This document shows positions 33,959 through 60,571 of a DNA stretch of 64,000 nucleotides, piece after piece. Every line of letters starts with the position of its first letter. Positions within the stretch are counted from its first letter, which is position 1. A program made the position numbers and the translations under genes. This DNA comes from Thiothrix sp. (GTDB taxonomy: Bacteria > Pseudomonadota > Gammaproteobacteria > Thiotrichales > Thiotrichaceae): positions 1 through 64,000 of the forward strand of contig NZ_JAQTLS010000010.1 in NCBI RefSeq assembly GCF_028714775.1. Reading direction: 5' to 3'. The notes under the pieces are model-generated. The model worked only from the letters and a program-made list of their open reading frames with translations, had not been told where the DNA came from and made no database searches.

Positions 33959-35353
33959 TTATTCCGTCGTAGGCGCAGGGCTTGCCAATTTCTCGCCCGC
34001 ATTTCCCGCTGTCAGTGCATACCAGTCGAAGTGCCGGGTCGCGAGCATCAGCACCGCTAACACTACGAAGATCAGCACACTGCCCATCAGCAGCGCGTTT
34101 TCTTCCGCCTGCAAAATCATGTAGAGCAGCGCATACAAGCCCGCCAAACCCGCGCCGAGCAATAATCCCAGTTTGCGGCTGTGCAAGATCGCACCAAAAT
34201 ACAGCGTCAGCAACCCAGTACTCGCCAAGCCTGCCGTGCTGTATGCAGTGAGGAAGGCAAGGTGTTCCGACAGCGAAATCAGCAGCAGGTAGAACACCAG
34301 CAGCGCAAACCCAACCAGCGTGTATTGCACCGGATGGATGCGCAATTTCTTGAGCAATTCAAACAAAATTAGCGTGACAAACGTCAGCACGATGAACAGC
34401 AGCGCATATTTGATGCTGCGTTCCGACTGCTGGTAGACATCCACTGGCTGGATCAGGCCGAATCCAACCGCACGGCTCAACAAGTTGGTGCAATCCCCTT
34501 TACGGCATTCTTCCATCGCGCCCGTGACATTGAAGGAAAACGACGATGCCCGCCATTGCGCACTAAAACCCGTTTCCGTGATGTCGCGCCTAACTGGCAG
34601 CAATTCACCCGTGAAGCTGGGGTTTGCCCAGTTGGAAGCCAATTGCACGCTGGTGTCTTCCGAGAGCAAGGCAAAATTCATCGCCCGCATCCCGTTCAAT
34701 TCCAGATCGAAAGCAAACGGCAGACGGGTTTCGGCATCTAACGCCAGTGCGGGCAGTTTGGCGTACATCCCTGCGCTTGCGCCCGCCCCCGGCAAGTTGC
34801 TGCCCGGTTGGAAGGCTAGTTTACTGCCTGCCCATGTCAGGCTCGGTGGGGCAACGATGCCGCGCTGGTCACGCACCAGCACCGACAGGTAGGGTTTATC
34901 CCAACGGAATTGCTTATCTTTGTTTTCCGCGAGTAAATCCAACAGCGCTTGGTTGCTGAATTCGCCTTTGACCTGCAAGCCGCTGGTGTAAACCGGCACG
35001 CCGTAAATCCCCCGGTAACGCACGCTGCTATCCAGTTTACTTTGGATGTTCAATTGCTTGGGCAGCAGGTAAAGCGTATCGCTGAGGGTTTCTTCGCGGG
35101 TGATTTCGCGTTCACGTCCGCCATCGTCTTTCACCTTTTCCTTGCGGTTAAAGGTCAACTGGTAAGGGATTGCCAGCACCGGGCCTGCTAATGTTTGTTC
35201 GCCGGGCCAGCTTTGCCCGATACTTTGGTACGCCTGTTCGCGCCACCCCGCACGTTCCCCCACCAAGCCGAGGATGAACGATTGCGGGATCAGCAAAAAC
35301 ACCATCAGGCCGATGATGGTGGCGAGTTTGAAGTAAAAAGCGCGGCTGTGCAT
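33959..35353 (-). CDS. creD: CreD family inner membrane protein
   Basis: 464 aa. It has an N-terminal membrane helix (about 10-30), a large periplasmic beta-rich domain (about 45-300), and four to five C-terminal helices starting at YALLFIVLTFVTLILFELLKK (in part). The family hallmark region RSIKYALLFI then FELLKKLRIHPVQYTLVG is present. CreD is part of the CreBC regulon in enterics and affects envelope integrity; no creBC genes are nearby. AAGGAG precedes the ATG. Confidence 0.92.
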   Translation of the reverse strand: MHSRAFYFKLATIIGLMVFLLIPQSFILGLVGERAGWREQAYQSIGQSWPGEQTLAGPVLAIPYQLTFNRKEKVKDDGGREREITREETLSDTLYLLPKQLNIQSKLDSSVRYRGIYGVPVYTSGLQVKGEFSNQALLDLLAENKDKQFRWDKPYLSVLVRDQRGIVAPPSLTWAGSKLAFQPGSNLPGAGASAGMYAKLPALALDAETRLPFAFDLELNGMRAMNFALLSEDTSVQLASNWANPSFTGELLPVRRDITETGFSAQWRASSFSFNVTGAMEECRKGDCTNLLSRAVGFGLIQPVDVYQQSERSIKYALLFIVLTFVTLILFELLKKLRIHPVQYTLVGFALLVFYLLLISLSEHLAFLTAYSTAGLASTGLLTLYFGAILHSRKLGLLLGAGLAGLYALLYMILQAEENALLMGSVLIFVVLAVLMLATRHFDWYALTAGNAGEKLASPAPTTE

Positions 35354-56938: not shown

Positions 56939-59035
56939 TTACTTCTCTGCTTCGATCGCTTTCTTACGTTCTTGCGCTTCTTTGATGACCTGATCAGAAA
57001 CCGATCTAGGGCAAGCAGCGTAATGGGAGAATTCCATCGAGAACTGACCACGACCGGAAGTCATGGTACGCAGTGAACCGATGTAACCAAACATTTCAGA
57101 CAATGGCGCTTCTGCCTTGATACGTGCACCGATAGGTGCGGTATCTTGGGATTTGATCATCGCACGGCGACGGTTCAAGTCACCGATAACGTCACCCACG
57201 TGGGAATCCGGTGCAAACACGTCCACTTTCATGATCGGTTCGAGGATTTGTGGGCCAGCTTTCGGCATGGTTTGACGGAAGCCGCCTTTCGCCGCAATTT
57301 CAAACGCGATGGCAGAGGAGTCAACCGCGTGGAAACCACCTTCGCGCAACGTGAATTTCACGTCAACGACAGGGTAGCCCGCCAATGGGCCTTTGCCCAT
57401 GCTTTCTTTGAAGCCTTTGTCAATCGCAGGCCAGTATTCGCGCGGAACAGAACCACCGACAACCACGGATTCAAAGACATAACCCGTGCCCGGTTCGCCC
57501 GGTTCGATGGTGTAGTCGATTTTACCGTATTGACCAGAACCACCCGACTGCTTCTTGTGGGTGTAGCTGTCTTCGATGCGGTTGGTGATGGATTCGCGGT
57601 AAGCAACCTGTGGTTTACCGACGTTAACTTCTACACCGTGGGTACGCAGCAAGATGTCGACCTTGATGTCCAAGTGCAGTTCGCCCATGCCTTTGAGGAT
57701 GGTTTCACCCGTTTCTTGGTCAGTTTCAATACGGAAAGACGGGTCTTCTTTCGCCATTTTGTTCAGCGCGATACCCATTTTTTCTGCACCGGCTTTGTTC
57801 TTCGGTGAGATGGCGAGGGAGATGACCGGATCAGGGAAGACCATCGGTTCAAGTGTCGCTGGGTTTTTCGGATCACACAGGGTATGACCAGTTTGCACGT
57901 TTTTCAGGCCAACCAGTGCAATGATGTCACCCGCTTGTGCGGATTCGATGGAGTTTGCGTCATCCGCGTGCATTTCCACCATACGGCCAACCCGTTCGGT
58001 TTTGCCGGTGAAAGTGTTGAGGATGGTGTCGCCCGTTTTCAGTGTACCGGAGTAGATACGGGTAAACGTCAATGCGCCGTATTTGTCGTCCATGATTTTG
58101 AACGCCAAAGCACGCAGTGGGCGGGCAGCATCAACGATAGCAAATTCGCCAGTCGGTACGCCTTCCAAGTCAGTTTCAGGCTGTGGCTTAACTTCCATTG
58201 GGTTAGGCAGGTAGTCAATAACCCCGTCCAACACCAACTGGATGCCTTTGTTTTTGAAGGCAGAGCCTGCAAACGTTGGGAAGAAGTCCAGACCGATAGT
58301 ACCTTTACGGATGCAACGCTTGATAACGTCCATTGGCGGCTCTTCACCACCGAGGTACATTTCCATCGCGTCGTCATCTTGCTCGACTGCCATTTCGATC
58401 AGCTTTTCGCGCCACGTTTCGACCAGATCAGCCATGTCGGCTGGTGGGTCTTGGATCACGTAGTTCATCGGGTCGCTGGAGTTATCCCAGACCCATGCTT
58501 TACGGGTCAGCAGGTCGACCACGCCGGAGAAGTTGTCTTCTGTACCGATTGGCAGCACCATCACCATTGGGCGTGCGCCGAGTACATCTTCGACTTGCTT
58601 AACAACACGGTAGAAATCGGCACCCAAACGGTCGAGTTTGTTGACCAAAATGACACGGGCAACGCCGGAGTCATTGGCATAACGCCAGTTGGTTTCAGAC
58701 TGGGGTTCAACACCGCCGGAACCGCAGAATACGCCAACGCCGCCATCCAACACTTTCAGTGAACGGTAAACTTCGATAGTGAAGTCAACGTGCCCAGGGG
58801 TGTCGATGATGTTGAAGCGGTGGTCTTTCCAGAAACAGGTGGTAGCAGCGGACTGGATGGTGATCCCGCGTTCACGCTCTTGCACCATGAAGTCAGTGGT
58901 GGTCGCGCCGTCATGCACTTCACCAATTTTATGGATTTTGCCCGTCAGTTTCAGGATACGTTCGGTGGTGGTGGTTTTGCCCGCGTCAACGTGGGCGAAA
59001 ATGCCGATATTCCGGTAAAGTGTTAAGTCAGTCAT
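56939..59035 (-). CDS. Elongation factor G, second-type paralogue
   Basis: 698 aa. GTPase motifs are [19 protein letters not shown] and NKLDR; domains II to V follow to a C-terminal KAIEAEK. It catalyses ribosomal translocation or recycling. It begins [20 protein letters not shown], unlike the usual MAR...ERYRNIGISAH, and it does not adjoin rpsL, rpsG or tufA, so it looks like the additional EF-G (fusA2-like) seen in many proteobacteria. The canonical copy cannot be checked here. Confidence 0.9.
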
Positions 59036-59198: not shown

Positions 59199-59235
59199 TG
59201 TCACCCTCTGACGCCACACCTGTCGCTTTCTGACA
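59199..59235. promoter_or_regulatory. Paired enhancer-type dyads TGTC-N7-GAC(A/G)
   Basis: Site 1: TGTC..GACG at 59199-59213. Site 2: TGTC..GACA at 59221-59235. Centres are 22 bases apart (two helical turns) and lie about 90-120 bases before the -24 box, the usual position for a sigma-54 enhancer-binding protein. The flanking bases CCACAC are repeated in front of both. Confidence 0.6.
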
Positions 59236-59320
59236 GTTTTCCACCTGACACGCTCGGATTTATTTTTACCTGCCCCAAGCTACTTGTTAAATATCAATAG
59301 CTTGAAAATAAGTTGATGAG

Positions 59321-59337
59321 TTGGCACAGGGGTTGCA
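59321..59337 (+). promoter_or_regulatory. Sigma-54 (RpoN) promoter
   Basis: TTGGCACAGGGGTTGCA: GG at 59323-59324 and GC at 59335-59336 with exactly ten bases between, matching TGGCAC-N5-TTGCA. The predicted transcript starts near 59348 on the plus strand. No protein gene on the plus strand lies between here and speA at 60707. Confidence 0.8.
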
Positions 59338-59347
59338 ATAGGTTTCC

Positions 59348-59495
59348 TGTCAGAACAACGAACAGCCTAACAATAAGAATTTATCAGCAAGCCCCAAGAG
59401 GCGTAAGAGCAGGCATAAACATTAATAACAATAAAGCGCCTGACCGCCTCGACTCCTCATCCCCCTGCCGGTAACACGGTGGGGGTATTTATTTT
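59348..59495 (+). ncRNA. Predicted sigma-54-dependent small RNA
   Basis: It has a sigma-54 promoter at its 5' side and a hairpin with a T-rich run at its 3' side. There is no ATG in about 150 bases. A nested stem is visible: GAGGCG (59398-59403) with CGCCTC (59445-59450), and inside it CAGGC (59410-59414) with GCCTG (59438-59442), closing an A/U-rich loop of 23 bases (59415-59437) that could offer an Hfq site. Sequence does not recall GlmY/GlmZ or another known RNA. Confidence 0.6.
59461..59495 (+). terminator. Terminator of the predicted small RNA
   Basis: CCCCC (59461-59465) with GGGGG (59481-59485) and CCG with CGG inside, a six-base loop, then TATTTATTTT. The T run lies on the plus strand and overlaps the stop codon of the convergent DUF1176 gene. 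Confidence 0.65.
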
Positions 59496-60571
59496 GCCGT
59501 CCACAGGTTTAGATAGTCCAGTGAGCCACGGCATTCAGGCATTTCATCATAACGGATCGCCTCAAACTGCGCCCCTGTCCACACCCATTCCACCGACGTG
59601 CCACAATCACCAATGCCACGGCCTTTGTTGTACTCCGCCAAATGCCCGGTTTTAGGATCAAACGAAGCATTAACCAATTCCGATTGATCCCCCGAATGCA
59701 CATCTAACTTGGCAGGCGTCACTTTCGGTTGGGCGAAACTGGCGGAATCAGCCGCTACCACAAACATTTCATAGCCTTCGTTGTAAGCTGCCCGGAAGCA
59801 CATGACCCCGACCAGATAATGCTTGGCATCCAGCACTTCCACAAAATCACTGTCACTTATTTTGTTGTCCGTCTCATCCGCATCGCACTCCTTGAGGCTG
59901 TCAGCCATGACCGTGCGTACCTTGCCTGCCAAACCTGCCGGGGCTTTCATGCCTTTCGGTGCTAATACCGCAGTCCGCACGGGAGTAACGGGCGGCACGG
60001 CGGTCATCGGTTTGCTGCCTTTGCGTGCAAGGGCAGTGGTGGTATCCACACGCTGTTGCTGGGAATCCATGTACAACAAACTCGCGGATAAACCGCTGAG
60101 TGAAGCTTTGAAGGTTTTCCCACCGATACTGATAGTCAGTTGCGCTGGTTTGGCAACCAATTCCAGAAATGCAGCATTTTGGGCGGGAGGAATATCAATC
60201 GCGGCATTTTTCTGCTGACTTTTGCTCAAGTTACCGAGTTGCACGCTTTTGCCGCCGCCTTGTAAGGTCACGGGTTTGCCACGCAAATTTGCTGCCAGTG
60301 GCTCGAAACCCAAGGTCAGGCTGAAATGCGGCGCGTCTTGCGCCTGTCCACCGCGTTGCAGTTGTAACGTGGCATCCATTTCGTCGGAACCATCTTCCTT
60401 GAACAAAAAGGAAGTCGCCTCACACGCCCGGATATTGTTGCAGGCCACTGCCCAATCATTAAACACCTTGACCTCACCTATCGTGGGCGCAGCAGACAGC
60501 GATGCAGGCAAGAGGGCGCTGCCACACAAGATCAAGTGCGGAAGGTAACGGTGGAGAGCTAATGTTTTCAT
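59489..60571 (-). CDS. DUF1176 exported protein
   Basis: 360 aa. The signal peptide (HLILCGSALLPASLSAA) is followed by TIGEVKVFNDWAVACNNIRA, an invasion-associated-locus-B-like first part, then MDATLQLQRGGQAQDAPHFS and a C-terminal region with GIGDCGTSVEWVWTGAQFEA. DUF1176 proteins are periplasmic and of unknown function. AAGGA lies 8 bases before the ATG at 60571; the longer frame to 60814 runs antisense to the speA leader. Confidence 0.85.
   Translation of the reverse strand: MKTLALHRYLPHLILCGSALLPASLSAAPTIGEVKVFNDWAVACNNIRACEATSFLFKEDGSDEMDATLQLQRGGQAQDAPHFSLTLGFEPLAANLRGKPVTLQGGGKSVQLGNLSKSQQKNAAIDIPPAQNAAFLELVAKPAQLTISIGGKTFKASLSGLSASLLYMDSQQQRVDTTTALARKGSKPMTAVPPVTPVRTAVLAPKGMKAPAGLAGKVRTVMADSLKECDADETDNKISDSDFVEVLDAKHYLVGVMCFRAAYNEGYEMFVVAADSASFAQPKVTPAKLDVHSGDQSELVNASFDPKTGHLAEYNKGRGIGDCGTSVEWVWTGAQFEAIRYDEMPECRGSLDYLNLWTAK

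Follow-up and report, generated by a model that had tools for sequence, protein, structure and literature searches.

A conserved family of putative sigma-54-controlled small RNAs in Thiotrichaceae carries A-rich tracts of the type bound by Hfq

In the genome of a Thiothrix sp., a sulfur-oxidising bacterium, a gene-free stretch separates an EF-G-like gene (minus strand, start at 59035) from a DUF1176 gene (minus strand, end at 59489), and the question raised by this locus is whether it encodes a regulatory RNA and, if so, what such an RNA would do. The locus lies in a stretch of DNA of 64,000 nucleotides, here called the window, for which the initial annotation had proposed an enhancer-activated sigma-54 small RNA in a gene-free region; the latter part of this proposal holds, as the predicted RNA sits between the two minus-strand genes. 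A near-consensus sigma-54 -24/-12 promoter, TTGGCACAGGGGTTGCA, is present on the plus strand at 59321-59337, with the GG and GC elements 10 bases apart as had been stated. Upstream of it lie the two TGTC-N7-GAC dyads already pointed out, with starts 22 bases apart and neither assigned to a strand: a distal TGTC-N7-GACG (TGTCACCCTCTGACG, 59199-59213), 124 bases upstream of the GG, and a proximal TGTC-N7-GACA (TGTCGCTTTCTGACA, 59221-59235), 102 bases upstream, the latter being a probable site for a bacterial enhancer-binding protein. The IHF consensus WATCAANNNNTTR is matched in every letter between enhancer and promoter, at 59292-59304 on the plus strand, a position that is conserved. In the 64-kb window TTGGCAYNNNNNTTGCA is found a single time, where shuffles predict 0.09 occurrences, and a loose sigma-54 scan allowing 3 mismatches is uninformative (390 matches versus 416 expected). 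The exact dyad TGTC-N7-GACA is by itself not rare (2 in the window versus about 0.95 expected), and its significance rests on its conservation, since TGTC-N7-GAC is found close to the expected place, about 100 bp upstream, in 43 of 53 RNA copies, against a mean of 0.44 in shuffled upstream regions. The original observation is confirmed as real, yet it was understated, the exact IHF-consensus site, the A-rich tracts as such and the sister copies being additions to it.

The promoter unit is likewise retained in the other copies of the RNA. In the first 47 regions, a sigma-54 site with at least 11 of the 13 consensus letters accompanies 53 of 54 RNA copies. The sole copy in which no sigma-54 site was found, an RNA module at L048:5977-6100 (plus strand), also has a disrupted linker and is probably decaying. 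Two further sigma-54 sites in a Leucothrix region (L074, positions 834 and 2667, minus strand) were excluded from these counts because they lie upstream of protein-coding frames; they are sigma-54 promoters a few kilobases from two RNA copies, and the frames behind them are presumably rtcB and rtcA. A sigma-54-like site also stands beside the RNA in all 20 later regions, being weaker in one. The number of copies with a dyad rises to 47 of 53 once CGTC-N7-GACA is allowed, two dyads are found upstream of 9 of the 53, and the exact IHF consensus lies 26-40 bases upstream of the GG in 21 (mean of 0.39 in shuffles). Upstream DNA was inspected for 13 of the later copies: 10 have a marked dyad and 3 do not. 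When the dyad TGTC-N7-GAC is joined to the sigma-54 pattern, the source genome gives 2 matches, the RNA of the window and its sister, against 1 in the reversed control, and with the full GACA 2 against 0; the search for further TGTC-N7-GACA pairs suggested by the initial annotation, taken in this joined form, thus leads to the RNA and its sister only. Across 20 genomes the GACA enhancer and promoter pattern produced 47 matches, 42 of them at RNA loci, and 1 in the reversed control. The gene rpoN was found in all nine genomes tested, which span 8 genera, so that a -24/-12 element, an upstream activator site and the gene for sigma-54, as expected for a sigma-54-dependent promoter, were all found as predictions from sequence.

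The predicted transcript has a length of about 148 nt (59348-59495, plus strand), its start being placed from the promoter and its end from the terminator, and reading by eye revealed no ATG within 59348-59497, in agreement with the earlier claim of a transcript zone devoid of this codon. All of its elements lie on the plus strand. A 5' ARN-type tract, AACAATAAGAAT (59369-59380), identified from tract counts and a probable site for the distal face of Hfq, is followed by a single-stranded motif conserved in the module alignment, CAGCAAGCCCC (59385-59395), the AGCAAGCCCC element of the module. The 6-bp stem P1, in which 59398-59403 pairs with 59445-59450, encloses the 5-bp stem P2, in which 59410-59414 pairs with 59438-59442, both being derived from folding and covariation; P2 carries a long apical loop with AAUAACAAUAA and an ARN tract, AATAACAATAAA (59424-59435), recognized from tract counts and module conservation. 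Then come an anti-Shine-Dalgarno-like linker, GACTCCTCA (59451-59459), which is common in Thiothrix and not retained in Leucothrix, and an intrinsic terminator predicted by folding (59462-59495), composed of a 9-bp GC hairpin and TATTTATTTT. Of the features in the initial annotation, the nested stem with its A/U-rich loop is recovered as nested stems whose loop is A-rich, and the terminator as the GC hairpin ahead of TATTTATTTT.

The single-sequence fold of the window copy is weakly better than that of shuffles (z -1.36), and RNAalifold returned no structure for a mixed alignment (A1). The two-stem structure was derived from single folds, counted on a second alignment (A2, 40 modules) and then counted on modules outside A2. 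In A2, 9 of the 11 pairs display changes on both sides and 97.5% of the cells are paired; shuffles reach 91.6% and slid controls 21-40%. Among 67 matches fitted to the model 96.0% of cells are paired versus 85.5%, and in 32 further modules, which come from regions outside model building but were fitted to the model, all 11 pairs changed on both sides and 93.8% of cells are paired (72.0% in shuffles, 31-49% in slid controls). Accordingly, the two predicted core stems are supported by covariation. The core of the window copy matches the model R1 with 91.2 bits (E 1.7e-22), this copy having been part of the training alignment.

A search with a covariance model built from 40 modules, an approach that the initial annotation had called for, was positive in the Thiotrichaceae, with matches in 55 of 63 genomes of the family and in all 8 genera. 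Three of the 46 good assemblies were not matched; the eight unmatched genomes, these three included, are not proven absences, since both this search and that of the whole class were run with stricter filters. Most of the 55 matched genomes (41) hold 2-4 matches, 13 hold one and one holds five. By blastn the RNA was detected in 25 of 95 genomes, including the source genome and all 15 others of the genus, and in a class-wide sample only 2 of 274 genomes were matched, both from Thiotrichaceae and one of them the source genome. A pattern scan of named species genomes retrieved 72 stretches, 30 of which score at least 27.9 bits and have a TGGCA-type sigma-54 site upstream in every case, while none of the other 42, which score at most 23.5 bits or fall outside the E 1 list, has such a site; the gap between 23.5 and 27.9 bits is narrow, and many of the 30 come from genomes already in the analysed set. 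Their labels are Thiothrix, Leucothrix, Thiolinea, Thiofilum, Thiotrichaceae or those of metagenome-assembled genomes with vaguer names. A plasmid collection yielded no match to the RNA, and five viral contigs that fit a short pattern reach at most 18.6 bits with the covariance model and were treated as chance. The 64-kb window has no match among 4227 Rfam families, and in the literature, with subscription journals mostly outside the coverage, no description of a small RNA of Thiothrix or Thiotrichaceae was found. As judged from sequence, the RNA is a structured, multi-copy family with no Rfam match that is kept by most of the Thiotrichaceae examined. The promoter, the enhancer dyad and the stems are kept together in these relatives, as the initial annotation would lead one to expect, and its central proposal, a putative enhancer-activated sigma-54 small RNA, passes those of its tests that can be carried out by computer.

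The family comprises two forms. The short form, that of the window, holds one module and two ARN stretches, and the long-form sister of the source genome (C1:105907-106316) has 410 nt, two modules and six (ARN)4+ stretches, as counted by our own pattern, and no T-run follows its first hairpin. The presence of several copies, some of them close together, and the promoterless copy of L048 could suggest a repeated mobile or structural DNA element with no role as a regulatory RNA; we regard this as highly improbable, given the low copy number, the joint conservation of promoter, enhancer and compensatorily changing stems, and the position of the long form, which stays beside ruvA at 17 loci in the three genera Thiothrix, Thiofilum and Thiolinea (in one case ruvA was identified with Pfam). 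An action in cis, as a leader or attenuator for a neighboring gene, is just as hard to sustain. Short copies, that of the window included, are often located upstream of a gene for arginine decarboxylase, at a distance of a few genes at most, but in 33 of 53 cases, the window again among them, the nearest reading frame downstream runs on the other strand, which argues against a leader, and furthermore the neighbors vary and a terminator-like hairpin ends the short RNA.

Of the known systems, the initial annotation had chosen GlmY/GlmZ of enterobacteria for comparison. The promoter logic of this comparison stands, as sigma-54 control, TGTC/GACA enhancer dyads and IHF sites are described for these RNAs (PMC8745638); the Rfam match is missing, and the N7 spacing found here differs from that of the QseF sites, given as TGTC-N10-GACA in the same paper. 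CrcZ is the closer functional analogue. In addition, A-rich tracts dominate the RNA of Thiotrichaceae. We may nevertheless consider that the RNA acts as a GlmY-like decoy, capturing a dedicated RNA-binding protein that is not Hfq, with AGCAAGCCCC and the hairpin as the binding site. The glmY-like set of promoter sites, the several copies per genome and the conservation of hairpin and motif are compatible with this idea, but none of the 4227 Rfam families is matched, the dyad spacing departs from N10, and the A-rich tracts would be left unexplained; we therefore consider it unlikely, though less remote than the leader or the mobile element.

The resemblance to CrcZ, CrcY and CrcX of Pseudomonas and Azotobacter (RF01675) extends further. 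A sigma-54 promoter, enhancer sites and IHF are common to both (PMC6296734), as are paralogous copies and A-rich tracts of the Hfq type; of the features of a CrcZ-type RNA, a sigma-54 promoter and several A-rich (AAnAAnAA) tracts are found in the RNA of Thiotrichaceae. CrcZ is 407 nt long and has six A-rich stretches (PMC4063720), which compares with the 410 nt and six (ARN)4+ stretches of the Thiothrix sister. On the other hand, the CbrB enhancer subsites are TGTTAC/GTAACA (PMC6296734) and the conserved upstream element seen here is TGTC-N7-GAC, and the RNA of Thiotrichaceae has its own AGCAAGCCCC module and P1/P2 hairpin. Above its gathering cut-off (95 bits) RF01675 matched none of five Thiotrichaceae genomes, with a Pseudomonas control giving 2 matches of at least 330 bits, and the model R1 found nothing significant in two CrcZ loci, its best match there (E 0.61, non-significant) being a CrcZ hairpin with an A-rich loop. 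Homology with CrcZ was rejected, being unsupported by the covariance tests in both directions despite subthreshold RF01675 matches near the RNA in two regions (L024, E 0.22; L021, E 1.5) and a look-alike CAGCAAACCC...CGACUC seen by eye in a Pseudomonas copy (L177). The RNA would work like CrcZ if it titrates Hfq, as proposed below, yet it stands outside the CrcZ family, and its resemblance to GlmY is limited to promoter logic.

We hypothesize that this sigma-54- and enhancer-controlled RNA binds the distal face of Hfq and titrates the protein in the manner of CrcZ, an explanation to which, on the sequence evidence, we give an even chance of being correct. An enhancer-binding protein would occupy the TGTC-N7-GAC dyads, IHF would bend the DNA between them and the promoter, and RNA polymerase with sigma-54 would initiate near 59348; the ARN-type A-rich tracts, displayed by the 5' leader and by the apical loop that tops the two-stem hairpin, would then bind the distal face of Hfq and draw it off mRNAs, as is the case for Pseudomonas CrcZ. 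The 410-nt sister, with its two hairpin modules, would be driven from the same type of promoter, and consequently the effect would depend on dose and on the number of modules. When 130 or 300 nt from the predicted start are counted for each of 53 RNAs, AAYAAYAA is found 134 times and (ARN)4+ 130 times, compared with 3.5 and 19.2 in shuffles. The source genome encodes one Hfq, which contains the stretch YLVNGIKLQG, as does E. coli Hfq. The suggestion of the initial annotation that the RNA is possibly bound by Hfq thereby gains support from conserved ARN-type tracts and the presence of the hfq gene. Titration is favored because these tracts are of the kind with which CrcZ titrates Hfq, A-rich and bound by the distal face of the protein (PMC4063720). 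Conservation of sequence establishes the family, its promoter unit, its stems and its tracts; transcription, IHF binding, Hfq binding and titration are inferred.

Two features speak against a sponge, the conserved AGCAAGCCC, which titration does not explain, and the short form, which holds just two ARN stretches. Furthermore, AAYAAYAA is found in only 1 of 342 sampled translation-initiation regions, versus a mean of 2.0 for motifs of the same composition, which argues mildly against a broad CrcZ-like set of targets among the sampled genes. A creD-like gene of the window (33959-35353, minus strand) has AACAACAAGGAG before its start and looks like an Hfq-repressed initiation region; as 1 of 342 represents no enrichment, this case carries no statistical weight.

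The strongest rival to Hfq titration is that the RNA acts by base pairing, with AGCAAGCCCC as the seed, joined in Thiothrix by the anti-Shine-Dalgarno-like GACUCCUC, and with the A-rich tracts serving to dock Hfq. Class II base-pairing sRNAs, Hfq-dependent RNAs such as ChiX, MgrR and CyaR, likewise have ARN tracts and combine them, for contact with the distal face of Hfq, with a terminator. This combination is present in the RNA of Thiotrichaceae as well, which is set apart by the repetition of its modules and by having as many as six (ARN)4+ stretches. Base pairing through AGCAAGCCCC would account for the one feature that a sponge leaves unexplained. Across 53 aligned modules, repeat modules within one RNA included, the A at alignment position 8 and the CAAGCCC at 10-16 never vary. 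The first set has CAAGCCC in 64 of its 67 modules, and the three without it are weak matches (E of at least 0.05); in the second set 28 of 32 have it. CGACUCCUC is common in Thiothrix, and most sequences of the short form, when folded singly, leave it unpaired. However, the full CAGCAAGCCC, present in 61 of the 67 modules, is kept in only 16 of the 32 more distant ones, compared with 67 of 67 and 31 of 32 for the loop AANAANAA; CUCCUC is not kept in Leucothrix, and the A-rich tract of the 410-nt form exceeds what docking would seem to need. We therefore hold base pairing to be a real possibility, but a less probable one than titration of Hfq.

If the RNA is controlled by sigma-54, an activator should be found in the same genomes. 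The source genome encodes 11 strong PF00158 proteins, for which an NCBIfam scan, excluding L088, assigned NifA, NtrC and RtcR above the cut-offs and placed one protein nearest to NtrX, below the cut-off. Two others, L085 and L086 (on contigs C4 and C1), we take to be PilR-type regulators, a name that no protein model assigned to them; the receiver domain of L085 has an altered acidic pocket, with IIDSEP in place of IIDDEP. Of five small genomes, 4 contain best matches to the PilR-type proteins of the source genome and all 5 contain best matches to NtrX. A PilR-type protein is the best remaining candidate for the activator, with one genome, G041, as an awkward exception. The idea that Pseudomonas PilR recognises TGTC was not borne out by look-up, and TGTC-N7-GACA is absent from the stretches of about 3.5 kb around all 11 activator genes of the source genome, three of which have a dyad with a different last base.

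G041 keeps a perfect dyad, a sigma-54 site and rpoN (loci L203 and L190) in an assembly rated 96% complete, and a PF00158 search with a threshold of E 1e-20 found one protein in it, an NtrX with no GAFTGA. NtrX was not adopted as the activator because its GAFTGA loop is missing and its Walker B acid is mostly lost, even though no other PF00158 protein was found in G041. NtrX proteins of this kind, lacking GAFTGA, with the Walker B acid mostly lost and with a strongly conserved HTH, were observed in six genomes (L092, L190, L197, L198, L200 and L202), and in the four loci inspected by eye the gene adjoins a histidine kinase-like reading frame. Another genome, G057 (74% complete), gave a single, low-scoring PF00158 match.

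Taken together, we tentatively suggest, as a conjecture that we consider doubtful as a whole, that filamentous sulfur bacteria own an independently evolved, sigma-54-driven switch for Hfq titration, made of a repeatable hairpin module with a copy number that would set the dose, and that in at least one lineage (G041) the promoter may work in the absence of a GAFTGA activator of the classical kind, a degenerate NtrX perhaps taking its place. If true, a widely kept, multi-copy RNA would be placed under a dedicated enhancer and sigma-54, and this would be a second case, to our knowledge, besides CrcZ, in which sigma-54 controls the overall availability of Hfq. Whether Hfq sponges arise repeatedly would become a testable matter, and the RNA would offer a handle on global regulation in these bacteria, prominent inhabitants of bulking sludge and sulfidic springs.
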